Of a DNA stretch of 36,645 bases, positions 128-28,954 are shown in pieces. The notes below the pieces were generated by a model that was not told the DNA's origin, did not search any database, and was given only the letters and a program-made list of their open reading frames with translations. How positions within the stretch are numbered: the first letter of the stretch is position 1; the number at the start of each line of letters is the position of its first letter. The stretch is from assembly GCA_029931975.1 (NCBI GenBank), contig JAOZQY010000038.1, forward strand, positions 1-36,645, in the 5' to 3' direction. A program made the translations under genes and the position numbers. The stretch is from Bacteroidales bacterium (GTDB lineage Bacteria; Bacteroidota; Bacteroidia; Bacteroidales; GCA-2748055).

Positions 128-1900
128 TTACTGATTCCTGATCCAGTTGACCAAGCCCTTCATCTCCAGAATCTCCATAAGCTTATTGGGCAGAGGTTCA
201 AAGGAGAAATGATGCTCACCCACCTCTATACTCCCGGCCCCAAAGTCTATCTCAACCCCGTCACCCTCTTCATATGCCTCCACTGCTTCCGGTAAAACGA
301 TTAGCGGAAGGCCCTGGTTTATCGCTGAGCGGTAAAAAATCCGGTTCACAGACTTTACAATAACCGCCTTCACACCCAAATATGCAAGTCCCACCGAAGG
401 ATGTTCCCTGGAGCTTCCACAACCAAAATTATCACCCCCAAAGATGATGTCACCTGCTTTTACTCCGGTGGAAAAACTTGGATCAAAGCCCTCAAACAGA
501 TGCGGTATAATTGCTTCCGGATCTGAACTTTGCACCTCATATGTGAGGGAACCTGCAAACATTTGATCTGTATTGAAATTGTTGATATCCCCATAGGCCC
601 AGACCCCATTATTATTTCGGTTTTCGCCCGGCTCGATGCTGACACTTCCGGATTGTTGTTTCCGGAATGGAAATTTCTCAGACCCCTGATTCATTCTCGG
701 ATCCGAGATTTTACCATGGATCGCACTCAAAGCCACAGCTGCAGGGGAAGCAAGGTATATCTCGGCATTTTTATTGCCCATGCGGCCGAGGAAATTCCTG
801 TTAGCTGAAGAAATCACCCGCTGATTATCTGCAGGAATCCCCTGCCCTGTCCCCAGGCATGGGCCACATGAAGAACTTAAAACATTGGCGCCTGCTTCAA
901 GGAAAATGGTGATGAGTCCCTCATCAATTGCCTTGTGATAAATTTCCCGGGATGCAGGTATGACAAGCAACTGGACACCCGCTTTAAGCTTCTTCCCACT
1001 AAGCATGGCCGCTGCTTCACGCAAATCCTCAATCCGGCCATTGGTACATGTACCAATCAATCCCTGGTGTATATCCAGTCCGACAACCTCCGCAAGAGCC
1101 ATTACATTGTCAACATGATGCGGTGCGGCCACAAGAGGATATACCTCGTTCAGGTTGATCTCTATTTCCCTGCTGTAAGTCGCACCCTCATCGGCCCAGA
1201 CTCCTGCCGCTATTTCTTCCAGGTAGTCGTTCAATACCTGATCTGCCGGAAATACAGCATTCTTGGCGCCCATCTCCGATGCCAGGTTTGCCAGGGTCAT
1301 CCTGTCGGCAATGGTCAATGTTTTTACACCATCCCCATGATACTCAATGGACATATAGTTGGCCCCTGCCGATCCCAGAATTCCTATTATCCAAAGGCTC
1401 AGATCTTTGGCGAAAACTCCCTGAGCTAGTCTTCCTTGTAAGATGATTTTCAGAGATTCCGGCACACGAAACCACGTTTCACTCCTTAACCATAGTCCCG
1501 CAGCTTCGGTGCGATCAATTCCGGCAGCCATGGCATTAAAAGCACCCGAGGTACAGGTATGGCTGTCACTTCCCACAATAAGCATTCCGGGCTTTGCATA
1601 AGAGGCCATGATCTGATGGCATATACCACTTCCAGCATCGTGAAAATTCTTTACTCCCTGCTGAGCCACAAAATCACGAATAGATTGATAGGTGTTTGCA
1701 AGGGCTGCAGTTGTTGGAGGTGCGTTATGATCAAGCACCACTACAAGCTGCTCAGGATCAAACAAATTCTTCCCTCCCATTTTTTTGAAGGTTTTTCGGA
1801 TGCTCCCGGTATTATCATGGGTCAGAATCAGGTCGGGACGCTTAAACACAATGGAACCGGCCGGGGCCTGGAAAATCTTTTCAACAAAAGTAGAAGGCAT
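128..1900 (-). CDS. Fused LeuC-LeuD/aconitase-type hydro-lyase (copy A)
   Basis: This 590-residue protein joins a large and a small subunit of the aconitase/isopropylmalate isomerase superfamily in one chain. The combined length fits the compact LeuC2 plus LeuD2 type rather than full-size aconitase. The large part has the active-site pair D57-H58, H95 in GSGICHQ, DSHT at 112-115 and [4Fe-4S] ligands C285 (TCTNGR), C345 and C348 (SCGPC). The small part starts near residue 430 and has NTDQMF and GCGSSREH, the substrate carboxylate-binding loop. It should dehydrate and rehydrate a 2- or 3-hydroxy di/tricarboxylic acid in the cytosol. It is last in an operon: copy B, asnA, then this gene 30 bases later. 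Substrate (isopropylmalate, homoaconitate, citrate, citramalate or other) cannot be told from sequence. Start ATG at 1900 fits the family. Confidence 0.85.
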   Translation of the reverse strand: MPSTFVEKIFQAPAGSIVFKRPDLILTHDNTGSIRKTFKKMGGKNLFDPEQLVVVLDHNAPPTTAALANTYQSIRDFVAQQGVKNFHDAGSGICHQIMASYAKPGMLIVGSDSHTCTSGAFNAMAAGIDRTEAAGLWLRSETWFRVPESLKIILQGRLAQGVFAKDLSLWIIGILGSAGANYMSIEYHGDGVKTLTIADRMTLANLASEMGAKNAVFPADQVLNDYLEEIAAGVWADEGATYSREIEINLNEVYPLVAAPHHVDNVMALAEVVGLDIHQGLIGTCTNGRIEDLREAAAMLSGKKLKAGVQLLVIPASREIYHKAIDEGLITIFLEAGANVLSSSCGPCLGTGQGIPADNQRVISSANRNFLGRMGNKNAEIYLASPAAVALSAIHGKISDPRMNQGSEKFPFRKQQSGSVSIEPGENRNNNGVWAYGDINNFNTDQMFAGSLTYEVQSSDPEAIIPHLFEGFDPSFSTGVKAGDIIFGGDNFGCGSSREHPSVGLAYLGVKAVIVKSVNRIFYRSAINQGLPLIVLPEAVEAYEEGDGVEIDFGAGSIEVGEHHFSFEPLPNKLMEILEMKGLVNWIRNQ

Positions 1901-19467: not shown

Positions 19468-20154
19468 ATGCGTATCGACATAATTACAGTGTTACCAGCC
19501 CTGCTGGATGGTCCACTTAAACACTCCATCGTCAAAAGAGCCAGTAAGAAAGGTCTGGTTGACATCCAAATTCATGACCTGAGAAACTTTGCAAAAGGCA
19601 AGCACAGAAGTGTGGATGATTATGCCTTTGGTGGCGATGCCGGCATGGTGATGTCCATAGGTCCCATTCACAGGGCCATCACCCACCTGAGTTCATTGCG
19701 GGAATACGACGAGATAATCTACACATCGCCCGATGGGCACAGATTCGATCAACGGGAAGCCAACCGCCTGGCCACCTTAGAGAATGTCATTATCCTGTGT
19801 GGCCATTACAAAGGAGTGGATCAGAGAATCAGGGATCACCTGGTTACCCGTGAGATCTCCATTGGGGATTATGTGCTTACAGGAGGCGAACTGGCTGCCG
19901 CCATCATCACCGACAGTGTTGTCCGCCTTCTACCCGGAGCCATCTCCGATGAAACTTCAGCTCTAAGCGATTCCTTCCAGGATGGACTGCTTGCGCCACC
20001 TGTTTATACTCGACCGGCAGAATACCAGGGGTGGAAAGTGCCAGACATCCTTTTATCGGGACATGCTGCAAAGATAGACCAGTGGAAACATGAGCAATCT
20101 CTTGATCGAACACGAAAACTAAGACCCGATCTTCTGGAGGGATTTGAAGATTAA
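19468..20154 (+). CDS. trmD: tRNA (guanine-37-N1) methyltransferase
   Basis: A 228-residue SPOUT-fold enzyme that makes m1G37 in tRNAs reading CNN and GNN-type codons, preventing frameshifts. Seen: [30 protein letters not shown], the knotted SAM site [13 protein letters not shown] and [15 protein letters not shown], and the C-terminal part [19 protein letters not shown]. Here it stands alone rather than with rpsP/rimM/rplS. Its stop codon abuts the stop of the convergent channel gene. Confidence 0.96.
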
Positions 20155-21897
20155 CTAGCGCAGTACTTTTCGTACGAATGCCACGGTAAAGTAAGACATC
20201 AGGAAGAGTCCAAAGAAGCCTTCGATGGCAGATACCCAACGGACTGCACCATAGGGATAGTGATCTCCATAACCAATGGTCAGAAAGGTGATTGCACTAT
20301 GGTAAAATGAACGGGCCATCATGCTTAGCTGATCATCGACCGATGCAATAATATCGGCAGGGGTCCAGAGCAGCATGAAATAATAGAGCAGGCTGAAAAG
20401 CACAAAAAAAGTAAGCATGGTGATCAGCACCCTCACCGGACTGGTTGCATAGAGTCCGGCCTTGTCGAACAGCGCAAGTTTGAACCAGTAAAGAGGATAT
20501 TGATAGATGGCCGTATGCGGTTTTCCTTTTACAGAATCGTGAAGAATAGCTTTTGACTCGCACCTCTTGAATTCAACATAGGCCTTATCTTCGGCATTAT
20601 AGAGCCCCAGGTTTTTAAAATTTTCCTTCAGGATTCTGAACTGTTCTGCCCTTAAGATGTGACTACTTTTGGCCTGGCTGTAAATCATCTCTTTGACATG
20701 ATTGCTGTTCCAGTCCAGATAAAACCTTCCAAGCAGCCGCATGCCACCCATAAGAAGTGTGTCGATCTGTGCAGTAAATTCATGTGGATTCATATCGATG
20801 ATATCCCTGACTACCGTATTAGAGAGATCAATGGCGCTGCTTTTGTTCACCCTGAGATCCAGGAATCCATTAAGATGACAGAAGCGAAACGAAAGACTTG
20901 AGAACCACGATTTATAGAAGCTAAGCTGCTCATCACTGAAAAGGGTACGTTCAAAACTCACATCCACATTTTCAAACATCACTTCTTCGAAACTAAATAC
21001 CCCGCTTCCCAGGATGCCTCTTTTAAAACTGAATTTCCCGGAATCCATCTCGCATCCATCAAAAACCACCTCCCCGGCACCAAATATTGAGCGGTTAAAA
21101 TTCACCCTCCCTTTTCCAAACTCAACCGTTCTGAAGTCGACCCGTCCCGAACCAAATTCGGTCCGTTCAAAACTGAGTTCCACCTCCTTAAATGCTGCAA
21201 AATGAAAATCCACCTTTCCATCTCCAAATCGTGCTATCTTAAAGGATACTCTCTTTCCCCCGAAGTGGGCATTGATAAAACTCACATCTCCGTCATCAAA
21301 CTCCGCATTTGCAAAAGATAATGTGGCCCCACCAAATGAGGTGTACTGAAAATCTTTTATGCCCTTTCCAAAGACGCAGTTCTTAAAGCTTACATTATCT
21401 GCCTTGATCTTTACATTCTTAAAATTGAAATAGCCCTCAGAAAAATGGGTGTCATGAAAAGAAATAAGAGTGGTATCAAATACTACGGCTTCAAAATTCA
21501 CGCTTCCGCCGCTGATCCAGGCACCTCCCAGGTTGAACTCCTTCCCTTCAATAACTGCATTTGAAAAGTCCAATTCAGCATAGCCTTCAAAAAGCGCCTC
21601 CCGGGCAGTGAAGCCTTTAATCACCACCTTCTCTCTTGCATCCATATTGCGGGTAAGACGGTAATCGCGCAGGGAAAATTTTTCGATATAACAATGATCC
21701 AGGTTAATGGCTTCCCCCCGGTCAATGGCCTTGTAAATCTCCTTCTCCTCCATGTATCCCATCAGTTCCACCACCGACTTCTCCTTACCTGGTACATTAA
21801 AATGAACCAATGCAGTACCGGGAAACCTGACTCCTTCCTCTGTTTCAAATTTGAGCTTTTTGATTTCCGATGTAAAAGAGGTGTATCCGGGTAGCAT
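20155..21897 (-). CDS. Two-helix potassium channel with N-terminal 12-residue repeat solenoid
   Basis: A 580-residue protein. From about residue 135 to 332 it has 17 tandem 12-residue units of the pattern F-x-x-[AT]-x-F-G-x-G-x-[VL]-[SD], with Phe at n and n+5 in nearly every unit; this is a beta-solenoid of the pentapeptide-repeat-like type. A helical region (about 395-460) follows, then TM1 (488-510), a pore helix, the K+ selectivity filter TIGYGD (540-545) and TM2 (554-576). The solenoid should be cytoplasmic and could sense a ligand or anchor the channel, but this is inference. It has no typical RCK/TrkA-N gating domain. It lies 33 bases downstream of the addB-like gene and abuts trmD convergently. 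Confidence 0.8.
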   Translation of the reverse strand: MLPGYTSFTSEIKKLKFETEEGVRFPGTALVHFNVPGKEKSVVELMGYMEEKEIYKAIDRGEAINLDHCYIEKFSLRDYRLTRNMDAREKVVIKGFTAREALFEGYAELDFSNAVIEGKEFNLGGAWISGGSVNFEAVVFDTTLISFHDTHFSEGYFNFKNVKIKADNVSFKNCVFGKGIKDFQYTSFGGATLSFANAEFDDGDVSFINAHFGGKRVSFKIARFGDGKVDFHFAAFKEVELSFERTEFGSGRVDFRTVEFGKGRVNFNRSIFGAGEVVFDGCEMDSGKFSFKRGILGSGVFSFEEVMFENVDVSFERTLFSDEQLSFYKSWFSSLSFRFCHLNGFLDLRVNKSSAIDLSNTVVRDIIDMNPHEFTAQIDTLLMGGMRLLGRFYLDWNSNHVKEMIYSQAKSSHILRAEQFRILKENFKNLGLYNAEDKAYVEFKRCESKAILHDSVKGKPHTAIYQYPLYWFKLALFDKAGLYATSPVRVLITMLTFFVLFSLLYYFMLLWTPADIIASVDDQLSMMARSFYHSAITFLTIGYGDHYPYGAVRWVSAIEGFFGLFLMSYFTVAFVRKVLR

Positions 21898-21930: not shown

Positions 21931-24801
21931 TCAATCAATGAATTTACGCTGACAGAGGGATGCGAAATCGCAGTAGCTGCATATTTTATCGTTCTCCCTC
22001 TGAACAAAAGGAATAGTTGGATCGAAGAGTTTTTGCACCAGCTCTTTCAGTAACTCCATAAACTGATTCTCCAGGGGAAAAAAGGAAGCCACTCTTCCCT
22101 CCTTCTTCAGACTGGTCATATTAAGGGCCGCATCAAATTCCTCTTTAAAAAGACCCTTCATGGAATACAGCCCTGGCATAACATCCTTCCCGGGGAAGGC
22201 CTCCCCCACCAGCCAGGCATAATAGAAGGTTTGCATTGCCGCACTGTTCCTGCTTCCGTAATTCCCGTCGAAGAGGCTCTCCACATCCCTGAATTTCTGA
22301 TCGGTCCGCCCGGTTTTATAATCAATTACCCTTAGCTGGCCTCCGACCCGGTCAATCCGGTCAATCTTTCCGCCCAGACTGAGTTCTATGGTTTTTCCTT
22401 CCACTTCAATTGCCAGGTTTCTCCTGTAGGTCGCCTCGGCGGCCACCAGCTCGAAGGGAGCAATGGTAGTATCCTGCTTCAGTACCTGCTTCATATACCT
22501 GAGCATTACGCTGAATATCAATATATTCCTACCTTCAATAGTTTCCTTTTTCCGTCCCTTATAGTGATGCTTTATGAATTGCTCTCTCAGCAAAGATTCG
22601 TACTCATTACTGCTCAATAACTTATTAAGGTCCTCTTTGCTGATTATCCCTCTATTCTTCCCGGCAATTTCAAGATACAATTCATTCAGACTGTCATGCA
22701 CAACGGTACCAAAACCACTGGCATCGATATCCTCAGATATTTCATCCATTTCACCCAGACCCGCTATGTAACGAAAATAATACTTCAGGGAGCAATCGAT
22801 ATAGGTGTTGATTGCCGAGGGCGAGAGATAGCGATCCTCTTCACTTCCCATTACATAGCGCCTGAGCTTTTGGGTGACTACTTCGCCATGTTCAATCTTG
22901 ATCGGAGTAATTTCCCGGGCCTGGACGTTCAGACCCGGTCGGATGACCTCCAGGCCCTTCTCAAAAATCAGCTGCCGTACATAGCGACTCATTTCTCCGG
23001 TCGACACACCTTCCGTACTTCCATTGAACAGGATATCCACACGGTCAGCACGTTGAAGGAGGCGGTAGAAGTAGTAGGCATAAATCGCATCCATCTCTTC
23101 CCTGGATGGCAGGCCGAATGCCATCCGTAGAGAATAGGGAATATGACTGTGAGTAGCCTCCTGGGCAGGCATGACTTCCTCGTTCATAGAAAGCAGGATC
23201 ACATGCCTGAAATCGAGTAGCCTGGTTTCCAGGATACCCATAATCTGCATGCCTGAAAGCGGTTCTCCCTCGAAAGGAATACGAAGATTTTGCAGGGATC
23301 TCCGAAGCAAGCGCTCCATTAACTGGTAGCTGATATCGCTTCGCTGCTCATTGAGCCTTTCAAACTTATTTACCTGCTTTAAAAGCTGGAAGCAAAACTC
23401 CCGGTCCAGGACATCCTCATGTCGACTGCCCCTTCCTGCAATCAGTTCAAGAAGATGCAGAAAGATCTTTCTCAGGTATTCCAGCAGGGAAGCCGCATTG
23501 TCCAGGGGCCTGAAGATCATTTGTTCCAGCTCTCCCTTAAAAAGCTCCCGGTCGATCATATGCATGTTTTCTCGGATTATCCGCCCGCTGAGCTCGACGG
23601 ATCCTCCCCCCTGCATCTTCCAGAAATAGGGGTGCTGCAGGATATCATTCACATCCTTATGGTAAAAACGGGTACTTCCGTCTGCTTTCTTCCTGGCATG
23701 GTAATGCAAACGCAGGAGACTGTCCAGAAAAGAGAATACCGGAGTGTTTTTCATGGGATAACCCATGGTTATATTTACTTCCTCCACACCCTCGGGCAGG
23801 GACATCAGGACAGGCAGGAGCAGCTCCTCATCACAAAGAACCAGGGCTGTATCTGTACTCTTGACAAGCCTGTCCGGATCTTCATCCTTCAGCAAATGAT
23901 ATACGGTCTTGGACTGGAGCACATCCGTTGGTAATTCGTAAATCCTGTATTGTTTTCCCTTTGCCAGTCCCTTAAAATCTTCCAGCTTTTCAGCTTCCGG
24001 GAAACGTAAGATATTTTCTCGCAAAAAGCGGCCCGCTTCTTCTCCTCTGTCATCCATGAAGCGCTGGTCATAATCCCAGAAAAAAGCGGCACCATGTTCC
24101 CGGAGGGTGGAAAAGATCACCTTCTCACACTGGTTTAAAGCATTGAACCCGGCAACTATGGTACGCCCCCTTCGTTCAAAAGCATGTTCCCCCTTCAGGA
24201 TTCTTTCGGCCAGTTCGCGATACTGCATTCCCTGGTAACCCTCTCCAGAATACCTGAGTTCTTCCTGCAGTTTATTATAGAGCCGGGGAAGTAGTTCCCA
24301 GGTCTGCAAAAACTGCCGCTTTTCCGGGGTCAGATTGCCCTCGTAAAATCCTTCCCAGAACTGCCTGATAAATACAAGCTGTTCGGGTTCCAGCCCGGCC
24401 AGGGGTTCCTCCAGTGCCTTCAGGTCACGGATGTTTCGAAAGAGTTGCTCTGCATCAACCAGGTACTTATCAAGCTCATCAAAATCCCGAATCATCATTT
24501 CACCCCATTGCAAGAACTGGTCAAGAGGCTCCGCCTGCTCCACCATCGCAGAGTAGATGTCGTACAAGCGAAACTGGAGTTCTACAGGGTCGCTCAAACC
24601 TAGCTTACTCTCTGTTTCAATAAAGTCACCTATCCCGCTAACCCGAGGCATCCACATACTTGAATCCGTTGACTCTGACATATAGCGCTGAAGGAAGAGT
24701 CCCGCCCGGCGATTGGGAAGAATGACCAGCAGGTCATCCTCTCCCTCCCTTGCAGTCCGCAGCAGATAATCTGCCAGTCGTTTTAAAATGGCTTCTGTCA
24801 T
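21931..24801 (-). CDS. AddB-like helicase/nuclease subunit with PD-(D/E)XK domain
   Basis: A 956-residue protein resembling AddB of helicase-nuclease complexes that process double-strand breaks. The helicase-like N-terminal part lacks a usable Walker A (LLVILPNRRAGLFL), as in many inactivated partners. The C-terminal nuclease has D814 in GGKIDRID, then D827 and K829 of VIDYKTG, and an iron-staple cysteine set: one Cys in INTYIDCSLKYYFRY (near residue 670) plus C941, C944 and C950. It is third in a 4-base-overlap operon after addA and a radical SAM gene, which supports pairing with AddA. Confidence 0.85.
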   Translation of the reverse strand: MTEAILKRLADYLLRTAREGEDDLLVILPNRRAGLFLQRYMSESTDSSMWMPRVSGIGDFIETESKLGLSDPVELQFRLYDIYSAMVEQAEPLDQFLQWGEMMIRDFDELDKYLVDAEQLFRNIRDLKALEEPLAGLEPEQLVFIRQFWEGFYEGNLTPEKRQFLQTWELLPRLYNKLQEELRYSGEGYQGMQYRELAERILKGEHAFERRGRTIVAGFNALNQCEKVIFSTLREHGAAFFWDYDQRFMDDRGEEAGRFLRENILRFPEAEKLEDFKGLAKGKQYRIYELPTDVLQSKTVYHLLKDEDPDRLVKSTDTALVLCDEELLLPVLMSLPEGVEEVNITMGYPMKNTPVFSFLDSLLRLHYHARKKADGSTRFYHKDVNDILQHPYFWKMQGGGSVELSGRIIRENMHMIDRELFKGELEQMIFRPLDNAASLLEYLRKIFLHLLELIAGRGSRHEDVLDREFCFQLLKQVNKFERLNEQRSDISYQLMERLLRRSLQNLRIPFEGEPLSGMQIMGILETRLLDFRHVILLSMNEEVMPAQEATHSHIPYSLRMAFGLPSREEMDAIYAYYFYRLLQRADRVDILFNGSTEGVSTGEMSRYVRQLIFEKGLEVIRPGLNVQAREITPIKIEHGEVVTQKLRRYVMGSEEDRYLSPSAINTYIDCSLKYYFRYIAGLGEMDEISEDIDASGFGTVVHDSLNELYLEIAGKNRGIISKEDLNKLLSSNEYESLLREQFIKHHYKGRKKETIEGRNILIFSVMLRYMKQVLKQDTTIAPFELVAAEATYRRNLAIEVEGKTIELSLGGKIDRIDRVGGQLRVIDYKTGRTDQKFRDVESLFDGNYGSRNSAAMQTFYYAWLVGEAFPGKDVMPGLYSMKGLFKEEFDAALNMTSLKKEGRVASFFPLENQFMELLKELVQKLFDPTIPFVQRENDKICSYCDFASLCQRKFID

Positions 24802-25745
24802 TTCCTTGCAATAAATTTCTTACCCTGCCAGCTATCCTCTTCCTCAAGCAGCTTTTCAAAAGCCTTCAATACTCCATCGTAACGAAGGCCCCAGCCTTCG
24901 AGCAATCCCATTCCCGGAGTAACTTCACCGGCTATGCGTTCGATCACTAGCCAGGGCGGTAAAAGTTCCATGATCTCCATCATCAGATCAAGGTATTCCT
25001 CCAGGGTAAAAGAGGGGAAATCCCCCGGTTTTTTTTCAAATTCCCTGGCCATGGCCGTCCCCCTGATGAGCTGTAATTGATGAAATTTCACTGAATCCAA
25101 AGGCCAATCTGCCAGTTCCCTGGCCGTGTGCAGGTAATCGCTACGCTGCTCGCCCGGAAGCCCGAGAATCAGGTGACCTCCCACATGAATTCCCCTCCGG
25201 GCTGTTTCCTCAATGGCCCAGCGGCTCTTTTCCACATCGTGCCCCCGGTTCACGCGAAGCAGGCTTTGGTTTAACATGGATTCTATACCATATTCAAGCA
25301 CCAGGTGACAACGCTTTGATAGCTCCGCAAAATAGTCCAGCTTCTCCTCATCCACACAATCGGGCCGTGTCCCCACCACAATGCCCATAATTTCAGGAAC
25401 AGCAAGCGCCTCTTCGTAGAGCTTTTGCAAATGCTCCAGATCTGCATAGGTATTGCTGAAGGCCTGAAAATATGCCAGGTAGCGTTTTGCCTTGCGATAA
25501 CGCTTCTTATGAAATTCCATGCCCTTTATAATCTGTTCGGTCACCGAGCTATGGGCATCCTTATAAGATGGATTGAATGCACGGTTATCGCAGAAAGTGC
25601 ATCCTCCCCAACCCACCTTTCCGTCCCGGTTCGGACAGGTAAAACCAGCATTAATGCTTATCTTCTGAACACGCTCCCCATACTCCCTTCGGAAATAGTC
25701 GCTGTAAGCATTAAATCTTCTGTTTGTCCCCCAGGAATAGCTCAT
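24798..25745 (-). CDS. YhcC-type radical SAM protein (TIGR01212-like)
   Basis: A 315-residue radical SAM enzyme. The cluster cysteines appear in TCPNRDGKVGWGGCTFCDN, with spacing Cys-x12-Cys-x2-Cys as in the YhcC/Elp3-like group; GGHLILGLPGE is a later SAM-fold strand. Substrate is unproven. Both neighbours overlap it by 4 bases (ATGA-type), placing it between the two subunits of a recombination nuclease, an unexpected location. Confidence 0.88.
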   Translation of the reverse strand: MSYSWGTNRRFNAYSDYFRREYGERVQKISINAGFTCPNRDGKVGWGGCTFCDNRAFNPSYKDAHSSVTEQIIKGMEFHKKRYRKAKRYLAYFQAFSNTYADLEHLQKLYEEALAVPEIMGIVVGTRPDCVDEEKLDYFAELSKRCHLVLEYGIESMLNQSLLRVNRGHDVEKSRWAIEETARRGIHVGGHLILGLPGEQRSDYLHTARELADWPLDSVKFHQLQLIRGTAMAREFEKKPGDFPSFTLEEYLDLMMEIMELLPPWLVIERIAGEVTPGMGLLEGWGLRYDGVLKAFEKLLEEEDSWQGKKFIARK

Positions 25746-28700
25746 GCTTCAACCTTTATGGTTTGATCCAACATCACGTACCAGAGATAGCCATCTACCT
25801 GCTGATGGCCCATCTGCTTTAATTGTTCCATATAGCCCCTTACTTGCTTATGATAAGCAGATTTTTGTTGTTCCCCAAATTTAAAATCCACCACGGTTAC
25901 CTTGTGGGGACCTATCATCACCCTATCGGGTCTGAGTACCCTGGAATCACCACAAAGAATGGCCCGTTCATTAATAACCCTTTCCCTGCCGGAGAACCAG
26001 TCTGATACCAGGGGCTGCCTTATTTTTGAACGGATCAGCTCCTCCAGTGAGACTCTTTCGCCCCGGGGAACCAGGCCCGATTGCACATAACGATCCAAGA
26101 GCAAGGTAAGATCCTCAAGGCTCTTCATACCGGAAAAAAGCTCGTGCATCATATTTCCAAAACTCCGCTCAGTTCTGAACAGCCCCTGTTCATCCACAAA
26201 AAACTGATCATTTCTCAGGCGAATCCGAAGGGAGCGGCTTCGCACATTCACCGGATAATCTGAAAATTCCCAGGGATCCTTAAGTTTCTCTTTTGTGACA
26301 ATGGGCCTGCTTTCTCCGTAATCCAGATAGTTCTTATCCAAAAACTCTTTCAAAGGCGGCGTACAGGGCTCTTTCACGGGCCGACTGCTCAGAATGGCTG
26401 CCAGCAAATCATTCACTTTTTTCATACCCTTTCCCTTGCTACCAGGAAGCCCGAGAATTAGTTGGTCCTTTGCCCTGGTACAGGCCACATAGAGAAGATT
26501 CAGGTTATCCATATAGGATTTCATACGCTCCCGGTAATAGTCAGGGGCAAAGCTGGAATGAATCAGTTCCTTCTTGTATTTTAGTGGAACCACCGGAATC
26601 CGATCGAGCCCGGTACCCCCGGTCCGGCACCAGAGAATGTTCGCATGCCTCGAATCAGGTGTCAGAGACCAGTCGCAGAAAGGTATAATCACAGCCTTAA
26701 ATTCCAATCCCTTGGATTTATGAATGGTCATAATTCGAATTGCATTGGAGGCCTCCGAAACAGCCACGCTCTTCTTGTCACCGTTTTGTTCCCAGTAATC
26801 CAGGAAATCGGCCACTCCCATAGCCTCCTTTCGCTGCAGTTCCATGATCAGTTCCTGGAAGGCCTGAATATAGGGCATATCTTCAGACCGTTGTCCCAGC
26901 TTAAAAATCTCAACAAGGTTTTCACTGAGCTCATAAAGAGGCAAAAGTTTTAATCGCTCCTTTTGTTCAATAAAGTTTGTTGGGAAAAGCTTTTCGGGAC
27001 TCAATTCATGCATAAACCGGCTTCCCTCCACATCCACAGAGTCATCCTGTAAAAGGGTATAGAGCTGTTTGAGCAGGGCGTTATTTACAATATGGTCGGG
27101 CTGAAGGGTATAGCGCAGGAGGGATACCAGGAAGGACACAGAGGTATTCTGGATCAGCAGCAGGGAATCATTAGATATCAGCCTGAAATTCCCATTCTTC
27201 CTACTTTGTCTGGCATGTTCAAGCAGGCTGGATGCCACCTGCGCACCCTGCCTGCTGCTGCGTACCAGGATGGCTATCTGACCTGGCTCAATCCCGGTCG
27301 CCTGCAAATCCTCTACCCACCCTGGCAGGGACTCCAGAACACCCTCAGTAAATACTCCATCCTCGTTTTCAAATATGTGCCATTGTACACGCCCTCCGGT
27401 TCCCTGGAGCTTATCAGGTATATTCTGCACCACATCGTCATAGGCTAAGCGAAAACGTTGCTCTTCCCTGTGGGCCTCCTCCCTGCTGATTACGGAAAAG
27501 CTTAACTCCCTGGAGATCTCATCACCAAGCAAAGCCGATGCCAGTTGAAACAGACTGTTATTGAAACGCACAATATTTTCCGAGCTGCGGTAATTCTTGT
27601 CCAGCTTTTCTATTTGCAGTTCCTGATGCCTGAAGTCTTCTTCAAGGTCACTAGCCAGAATTTTCCAGTCAGAGTTTCTCCATCGGTAGATGGATTGTTT
27701 CACATCCCCCACCACCAGATTTTCATTTCCGGAAGCCAGAGAGTTATCCAGGAGCGGCCTGAAATTCTCATACTGGAAGAAAGAAGTATCCTGGAACTCA
27801 TCCAGCATGATATGATGGAATCGGTTACCGGTTCGTTCGTAAATAAAGGGCACCTGGCTACCGCCGATAATACCTTTCAGGAAGCGGCTCGAATCGGCAA
27901 TCAAAAACAAATTCTTTTCCCTGGTATATTCCCTCACGTAGTTCCAGATATCGGCCAGTATACCCAGGGTATAGAAATAAGAACGAACCGCCTCCACCGT
28001 ATTCAATACCACCCATTGCTGGTATAGTTTATTCAAAAGGGGCATCAATTCATTTTCAACCAGGCTCAGTATTCCGGGTCCATCATTTTTCTTTAACCAG
28101 GGAGCCGGATCGGTCATCCCCTTCAGGCGGGTATCTGAAAAGCTGAGTTTCTCTCCATCCCGGGCCTTTAAAAAGATAATCGGTATGGACCTTGAAGCCC
28201 CTGAAAATCCCTCAGGCTCAAGATTTGCCATTTGTATCTTTTGCAGGGCAAAACTTCCTGTTTCTTTTAGCAGCCTGTTACTTTCCCGTTCCAGCCTGCG
28301 GATATCAGCCAGGTAGAGATCCAGGTTTTCCTTGTTCAGCACCTCTATGTTCTGATGTTCAAAGAGGGACTGGAAAGCTTCCATAAACAATTGCTTCCCA
28401 AGAAGAATAATCTCGTTCTTAAAGTTCCAGGAGGCAGTACTCTCCATGCGTTCTTCAGCAAAACGGATGAGCCAGCGTTGCAGGTCCTCTCTGCTGCCCA
28501 GGTCATGGAACATGCGATCAACGGCAAGAGAGAGCACCCGGCTATGATCCAGTTCCAGGTTGTAACCCGGTTGTATTCCAATTTCCCTGGTAAAAGCTCG
28601 GATTACACTCTGGAAAAACTTATCAATGGTTCCGACGGAAAAACCGGAATAGTCATTCAGGATTCCCTTCAGGAGAGCTTCGGACCTCTGGCTGATCGCA

Positions 28701-28954
28701 CTGTCCTTCAGTCCCGTAGCCTCCCTTAAAAGTTTCATCTCCTCCAGTTCATCGCCCTCCCTGTAAAGGGAGAGAGCATGCAAGCGGTCCAGGATTCGCT
28801 GCTTCATCTCTCCCGCCGCTTTATTGGTAAAGGTGACAGCCAGAATATGTCGTTGAATACCCTTATGCCTGAAGAGAAGCTTCAGGTACTCCATGGTCAG
28901 CGCAAAGGTTTTTCCCGAACCAGCAGAAGCCTTATATATGTTTAGGGGGGGCAT
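25742..28954 (-). CDS. AddA/RecB-like UvrD-family helicase with C-terminal nuclease
   Basis: A 1070-residue superfamily 1 helicase. Walker A is ASAGSGKT (9-16), motif II LDEFQDT (384-390), then [11 protein letters not shown] (416-426), and a motif VI region [11 protein letters not shown]. The C-terminal PD-(D/E)XK nuclease has D1010 and D1023/K1025 (VVDFKF). It would resect broken DNA ends with the AddB-like partner and load RecA. The start ATG is followed at once by seven Cs. First gene of the addA-radical SAM-addB-channel series, divergent from mnmA. Confidence 0.9.

Follow-up and report, generated by a model that had tools for sequence, protein, structure and literature searches.

What gates a potassium channel that has nothing after its second transmembrane helix and begins instead with several hundred residues of a phenylalanine-marked repeat? 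The question is raised by a 580-residue protein encoded by a bacterium of the Bacteroidales group, in a stretch of 36,645 nucleotides that was analysed as a whole and is called the window here. We consider it probable that the protein is the subunit of a two-transmembrane (two-TM) K+-selective channel gated through an N-terminal solenoid (~390 residues) of the Phe-type pentapeptide kind. The pore family points to a tetramer, K+ selectivity and gating by a ligand are inferred, and the solenoid is presumably cytosolic. Both repeat and pore belong to known kinds, and the architecture has one characterized precedent that we found, HalA, the channel of the Hailong anti-phage system (Tan et al., 2025, doi 10.1038/s41586-025-09058-z, as described in citing papers). 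What is new, as far as the literature examined shows, is the size of the protein, the coil of 24 residues predicted for it, the division of its family into two length classes, and its linkage to AddB-type nuclease genes.

Two Pfam families match the protein, Pentapeptide_3 (PF13576; 2.2e-9, 37.8 bits against a cut-off of 27, in 5 stretches) and Ion_trans_2 (2e-9, 37.6 bits against a cut-off of 22.5), and no other family was found in a Pfam scan up to E 1; a scan against NCBIfam returned no match. The Ion_trans_2 match and a GYG filter lying between two helices identify the C-terminal part as a two-TM K+ channel: the model places the pore helix at residues 526-540, and TIGYGD forms residues 540-545 (window 20263-20280). 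The chain ends at residue 580, one residue past TM2, and the Pfam scan up to E 1 found no RCK (TrkA) domain there, in agreement with the original prediction. The same genome (G000) holds three further Ion_trans_2 matches (L199, L200, and L201); by eye, L199 resembles the voltage-sensor type and L201 seems to carry a TrkA-N domain. The parts of the protein and the neighbouring genes are listed in Table 1.

Table 1. Parts of the solenoid-channel protein and neighbouring genes, with positions in the window
Feature	Positions	Strand	Basis
Solenoid-channel gene, 580 aa	20155..21897	-	open reading frame; full-length relatives
Residues 1-131, N-terminal, beta-rich, with short helices 51-59 and 76-82	21505..21897	-	model DSSP
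Residues 132-335, 17 x 12-residue units, Phe at n and n+5	20893..21504	-	repeat counts, conservation, Pfam PF13576
Residues 168-275, proposed binding surface	21073..21396	-	conserved non-core positions; function inferred
Residues 336-398, final solenoid strands, less regular	20704..20892	-	DSSP
Residues 399-486, conserved helical linker from solenoid to TM1	20440..20703	-	alignment conservation, model
Linker helices: residues 401-406, 413-430, 433-458, 463-483		-	model
TM1, residues 487-511	20365..20439	-	Pfam, model
Pore helix and TIGYGD selectivity filter, residues 526-545	20263..20322	-	translation, Pfam, model
TM2, residues 551-579	20161..20247	-	model
AddB-type PD-(D/E)XK nuclease gene, immediately upstream, 33-bp gap	21931..24801	-	Pfam PDDEXK_1 1.7e-35
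Radical SAM protein gene, between AddA- and AddB-type genes	24798..25745	-	Pfam typing
AddA-type UvrD helicase gene	25742..28954	-	Pfam typing
TrmD (tRNA m1G methyltransferase) gene, convergent downstream neighbour	19468..20154	+	Pfam typing

The repeat that had been noticed at window positions 20880-21495, which correspond to residues 135-339, is as regular as claimed. Phenylalanine stands at position n in all 17 units at a step of 12 (positions 135, 147, and so on to 327) and at n+5 in 14 of the 17, the exceptions being Ile164, Met284, and Leu296; F339 keeps the register, bringing the longest unbroken step-12 run to 18. These counts lie far beyond those of shuffled sequences: the 14 in-phase F..F units compare with at most 6 in 10,000 shuffles of residues 131-350 and at most 5 in 5,000 shuffles of the whole protein, and the 30 lag-12 F-F pairs with at most 16 in 5,000 whole-protein shuffles. 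(An automatic unit count was set aside because it ran past the ladder into the helices.) Across 78 aligned sequences, the Phe at n is kept in at least 81% at each of the 17 units. A new repeat type was considered and ruled out, given the Pentapeptide_3 match and a Streptomyces albus plasmid protein (WP_135567495.1) with an identical 12-residue Phe register. The Streptomyces protein shares with the channel protein both the F-x4-F-x6 spacing and the match to PF13576 and has the longer unbroken run (23 against 18), but it matches only Pentapeptide_3 and, unlike the channel protein, no pore family; its gene (L197:96-1652) is followed by one annotated as an AAA family ATPase. In all, plasmid records gave 68 matches, none covering more than 80% of the query; the best 15 of the 68 span the repeat part, and 14 of these 15 are annotated as pentapeptide repeat proteins.

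An AlphaFold2 monomer prediction for residues 1-580, built from an alignment of 78 sequences, has a mean pLDDT of 88.2 and a pTM of 0.75. It confidently predicts a beta-solenoid over residues ~51-370, with pLDDT in ten-residue blocks mostly above 90 over residues 51-370 and lower in the first 50 residues and in the pore region, and it shows the originally proposed path from solenoid through a helical region to TM1, TIGYGD, and TM2. The strands of the ladder have an autocorrelation in the model of 0.78 at lag 24, 0.35 at lag 12, and -0.13 at lag 20, which suggests that a coil consists of two units, 24 residues, rather than the canonical 20; a 12-residue coil was ruled out, as the model strands recur best at lag 24. 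Comparison of alignment profiles gives 0.442 at lag 12 and 0.448 at lag 24 and does not separate the two, so that the 24-residue coil is to be taken as a prediction of the model. We read it as an enlarged pentapeptide coil, which would have four faces of 5, 7, 5, and 7 residues. The canonical coil, as defined in a review of pentapeptide proteins (PMC8145042), consists of four contiguous pentapeptides; here the repeats are spaced by 5 and 7 residues and do not form contiguous five-residue repeats, four to a coil. The best 50 rows of a VIA-align comparison of the full model hold beta-helix proteins, phage tailspikes among them (best Z 22.6, rmsd 3.7, 320 aligned), which we regard as look-alikes without kinship to the channel protein. 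Neither HalA nor canonical pentapeptide proteins appear in these 50 rows, an absence that, by the tool's own note, is no evidence against either.

The closest CHARACTERISED protein is HalA (PDB 9nyi, with oligodeoxyadenylate, released 2025-05-07), which is the top Foldseek match of both the whole model (E 1.2e-4, the sole match below 0.001) and a model of residues 270-580 (E 4.2e-6, probability 1.00; SV2A is second at 6.9e-4, probability 0.41). In VIA-align, positions 1-311 in the numbering of this second model align with HalA 50-356 over 262 residues (Z 11.4, rmsd 12.9 Å); among the 49 other rows listed, 44 start at position 217 of that model, covering the pore only, and 5 at 145-191, taking in some of the linker as well. 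Because a pore-only row reaches Z 11.1, and a Z below ~13 for repeats or helical bundles may reflect merely a common arrangement, Z by itself fails to single out HalA, and the case for it, as judged from the models, rests on alignment coverage and Foldseek. HalA was not found by sequence in searches up to E 10 that used a profile of the linker or the single sequence of residues 1-482, and it was absent from the best 60 of 265-269 matches of a whole-length profile. Other solenoid-channel fusions, a search for which had been proposed at the outset, exist at the level of fold, in HalA, and in a second pentapeptide-channel fusion of the order, L089. The repeat region of L089 itself matches HalA residues 81-161 weakly (E 0.0071), where the HalA sequence is visibly pentapeptide-like. 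L089 (L089:360-1676) is a protein of 439 aa matching Pfam Pentapeptide_4, Pentapeptide_3, and Ion_trans_2; its three typed neighbours are a response regulator, an OmpA-family protein, and one without a Pfam match. Titles and abstract openings in the literature, a weak guide as most subscription papers lie outside their scope, describe no pentapeptide-repeat K+ channel, and the pentapeptide review (PMC8145042) never uses the word 'channel' in its text; the HalA precedent surfaced through the fold search and citing papers. It overturns the initial impression that no channel of this type had been characterized, since HalA has the same order of parts.

Matches to the protein occur in 15 of 28 genomes of the family (its own genome counted) and in 74 of 393 genomes of the order, a count that takes in fragments and doubtful matches such as G446 (pore only) and G742 (a frame with 8 stops); among good genomes of the order the figure is 58 of 326. 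In a sample of the phylum, 4 of 395 genomes have a match, its own included, and the other three match just around the pore. A species-level genome collection gave 415 pattern matches, of which 336 encode relatives, and the best 80 of these 336, which as such are biased to near relatives, all come from metagenome-assembled bins; these carry labels such as Bacteroidales or Bacteroidota in nearly every case, with three labelled Chlorobiota and one Chitinophaga. Viral contigs gave 3 pattern matches and no relative, and phage records no match to the protein; two PHROGs families without an assigned function do have matches, phrog_25690 to the repeats (2.1e-24) and phrog_15350 to the pore (3.4e-4). 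Among 67 aligned sequences there are two length classes, 46 of 572-585 aa and 21 of 648-672 aa, and the 21 long sequences have in common an 84-column insertion after residue 141, equal to 7 units in the alignment. A tree built from the last 240 residues groups the long class together, with 2 label changes, which is compatible with a single origin. In two genomes of the same genus (L013 and L015) the channel gene lies in pieces over several frames, through decay or assembly errors.

The gene neighbourhood differs between the two classes. In the window, the genes upstream, of a kind that acts in the repair of DNA breaks, are named AddB- and AddA-type because of their PDDEXK_1 and UvrD matches and their order. 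AddB lies upstream in 65 of the 80 best loci, and in the short class the immediate upstream open reading frame is AddB-like in 55 of the 77 loci with at least 600 bp upstream. It is quite possible, if somewhat short of probable, that shared ancestry accounts for this linkage, which would then be accidental and uninformative on function. AddB turned up in 38 of the 39 good genomes in which it was looked for, so that, set against the 58 of 326 with channel matches, most AddB genes must stand without the channel; the other 22 of the 77 loci have a different immediate upstream frame, in some cases short and on the opposite strand; AddB is near none of the 22 long-class loci, several of which reach contig ends; and the 80 loci carry the bias to near relatives already noted. 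Mere accident is harder to reconcile with AddB staying upstream while the downstream flank switches between TrmD (24 of the 80 loci) and lumazine synthase, TPR, and RecF-like genes (22-23), or with all 55 immediate AddB neighbours being on the same strand at a median gap of 66 bp. One of the differing upstream frames, L098:1883-5875, separates AddB from the channel gene and encodes a hybrid of PAS histidine kinase and response regulator, and L132 has a frame of equal size (1331 aa) at the matching position. The channel gene is also missing from some such sites: in L189 and L191 AddB adjoins TrmD directly, and in L188 a channel remnant lies between them (L188:5381-6003), made up of a piece that matches residues 1-162 and then, in a different frame, one that matches residues 534-580. 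The long-class loci (the 21 aligned and G801, whose frame is cut) have other neighbours. Six of the 22 (L173, L176, L179, L180, L182, and L206) encode a DUF6272-SiaC protein upstream of the channel gene and on its strand, and four of these six, the only such loci among the 22, also have a polyphosphate kinase gene downstream; a fifth polyphosphate kinase is nearby on the opposite strand. Pfam confirmed the SiaC assignment at five loci and that of the kinase at three.

Conservation was measured in two alignments, A1 (the window protein and 66 others of at least 550 aa reaching the end of the pore, with fragments and pore-only matches excluded) and A2 (the window protein and 77 of the 80 best loci, leaving out L103 and L141, both partial, and L154); two further alignments, A3 and A4, hold 29 and 62 relatives drawn from the same 80 loci. 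In the 78 sequences of A2, T540, G542, Y543, G544, and D545 of the filter are invariant, as are R387, L388, G390, W396, N399, K424, G431, E436, D437, F443, R445, and E447 of the linker region and G481, Y483, A484, T485, P487, R489, and V490 around the start of TM1, as expected of a coupling element. Within the solenoid, non-core positions conserved to at least 90% in A2 are concentrated in residues 168-275 (17 of 63, against 0 of 28 in 120-167 and 2 of 35 in 276-335), where mean non-core conservation is 2.70 bits against 1.85 and 2.12 in the flanks. The Mann-Whitney p for this difference is 1.0e-4 in A2 and 5.7e-5 in A1. These 17 are K172, N173, Q184, G189, N197, N209, K220, R223, H232, E244, R245, G249, D254, R256, N268, R269, and G273. 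The repeat phase suggests that they face outward, and we propose from their conservation that residues 168-275 are a putative binding surface. When the long class is included, as in A1, G225 is the sole non-core position of 168-275 conserved to 90%, which implies that the identity of the surface varies across the family.

From these elements a gating mechanism can be proposed in which the solenoid would replace an RCK or cyclic-nucleotide domain. A ligand or partner would bind the conserved middle coils of the solenoid, by analogy with HalA; the conserved helical linker would relay this change, making TM1 open or close the pore and thereby altering K+ flux and membrane potential. The suggestion in the original prediction that the solenoid stands in for the usual gating or sensing domain is reasonable, given the predicted solenoid, linker, and pore and the absence of an RCK match. 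An unlikely alternative is that the solenoid serves as a scaffold or localisation platform, for contact, assembly, or tethering, with the pore gated by voltage, pH, or lipids, or not gated at all. The clear functions of pentapeptide proteins in the review are protein contacts, those of gyrase-directed proteins and of SV2C as a receptor (PMC8145042), the core Phe is conserved along the entire ladder, and no ligand pocket was identified in the solenoid. A scaffold fits less well with the near invariance of the linker and pre-TM1 residues, which resemble a coupling element, or with HalA, which has its parts in the same order and is reported, in a citing paper and in its PDB title, to be blocked by poly-dA.

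A Hailong-type anti-phage effector, held shut by DNA oligomers or guarding the neighbouring AddAB-type nuclease and opening when a phage inhibits that nuclease, is a reading to which we give little credence. It draws on HalA as the closest solved fold, on the AddB-type gene immediately upstream in the 55 loci, and on patchy presence (58 of 326 good genomes, some matches doubtful, with one in-place remnant and two AddB-TrmD junctions that lack the gene). Yet HalB is a nucleotidyltransferase, and none was found among the nine window proteins typed, the adjoining genes being AddB-type and TrmD; no PADLOC 2023 model, phage record, or viral-contig relative matches; and the site beside AddB is common to distant relatives, which suggests inheritance with loss, not a moving defence cassette. 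Equally improbable is that the family consists of polyanion-gated K+ channels, of which HalA would be a distant cousin, the short class reading DNA that the neighbouring AddAB-type nuclease produces as oligomers or single strands and the long class polyphosphate from the neighbouring kinase: HalA's ligand (oligo-dA), the basic and amide conserved residues, and the two gene contexts are each circumstantial, and against them neither linkage holds at every locus, residues 168-275 are near neutral overall (15 K+R against 13 D+E), and the flanking units are acidic.

If, as we favour, the solenoid does gate the pore, these genes would represent a large uncharacterized channel family of Bacteroidales-type genomes, whose sensor fold has one characterized channel precedent that we found, HalA. 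The difference in solenoid length by whole units (7) between the two classes would then amount to a natural experiment on length versus gating, and the linkage to AddAB-type genes, and in part to SiaC and polyphosphate kinase in the sister class, would point to specific candidate ligands. Were the polyanion reading true, membrane potential would respond, by way of the channel, to DNA damage or phosphate state.

Among known systems, canonical pentapeptide proteins are likewise beta-solenoids with large hydrophobic residues at regular positions, but their coil is of 20 residues, whereas lag 24 is dominant in the model of the channel protein. The luminal domain of SV2C is described as a pentapeptide beta-helix (PMC8145042); SV2A and SV2C are eukaryotic and transporter-like and have no K+ pore, and their resemblance to the channel protein is limited to the repeat fold. 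With two-TM K+ channels of the Kir, KirBac, and KcsA type it has in common Ion_trans_2 and the GYG filter, and pore-only alignments are at ~2-3 Å, but its soluble domain is N-terminal with nothing after TM2, and unlike RCK-gated channels of the MthK type it has no RCK domain in that place. HalA, like the channel protein, runs from an N-terminal pentapeptide-like solenoid through a helical linker to a C-terminal two-TM pore. It is shorter, at 371 aa against 580, and the 12-residue Phe units set the channel protein apart from it. HalA has HalB as its partner, whereas the channel gene, beside which no HalB-like gene was seen, is accompanied by AddB or, in the long class, by SiaC and polyphosphate kinase genes.
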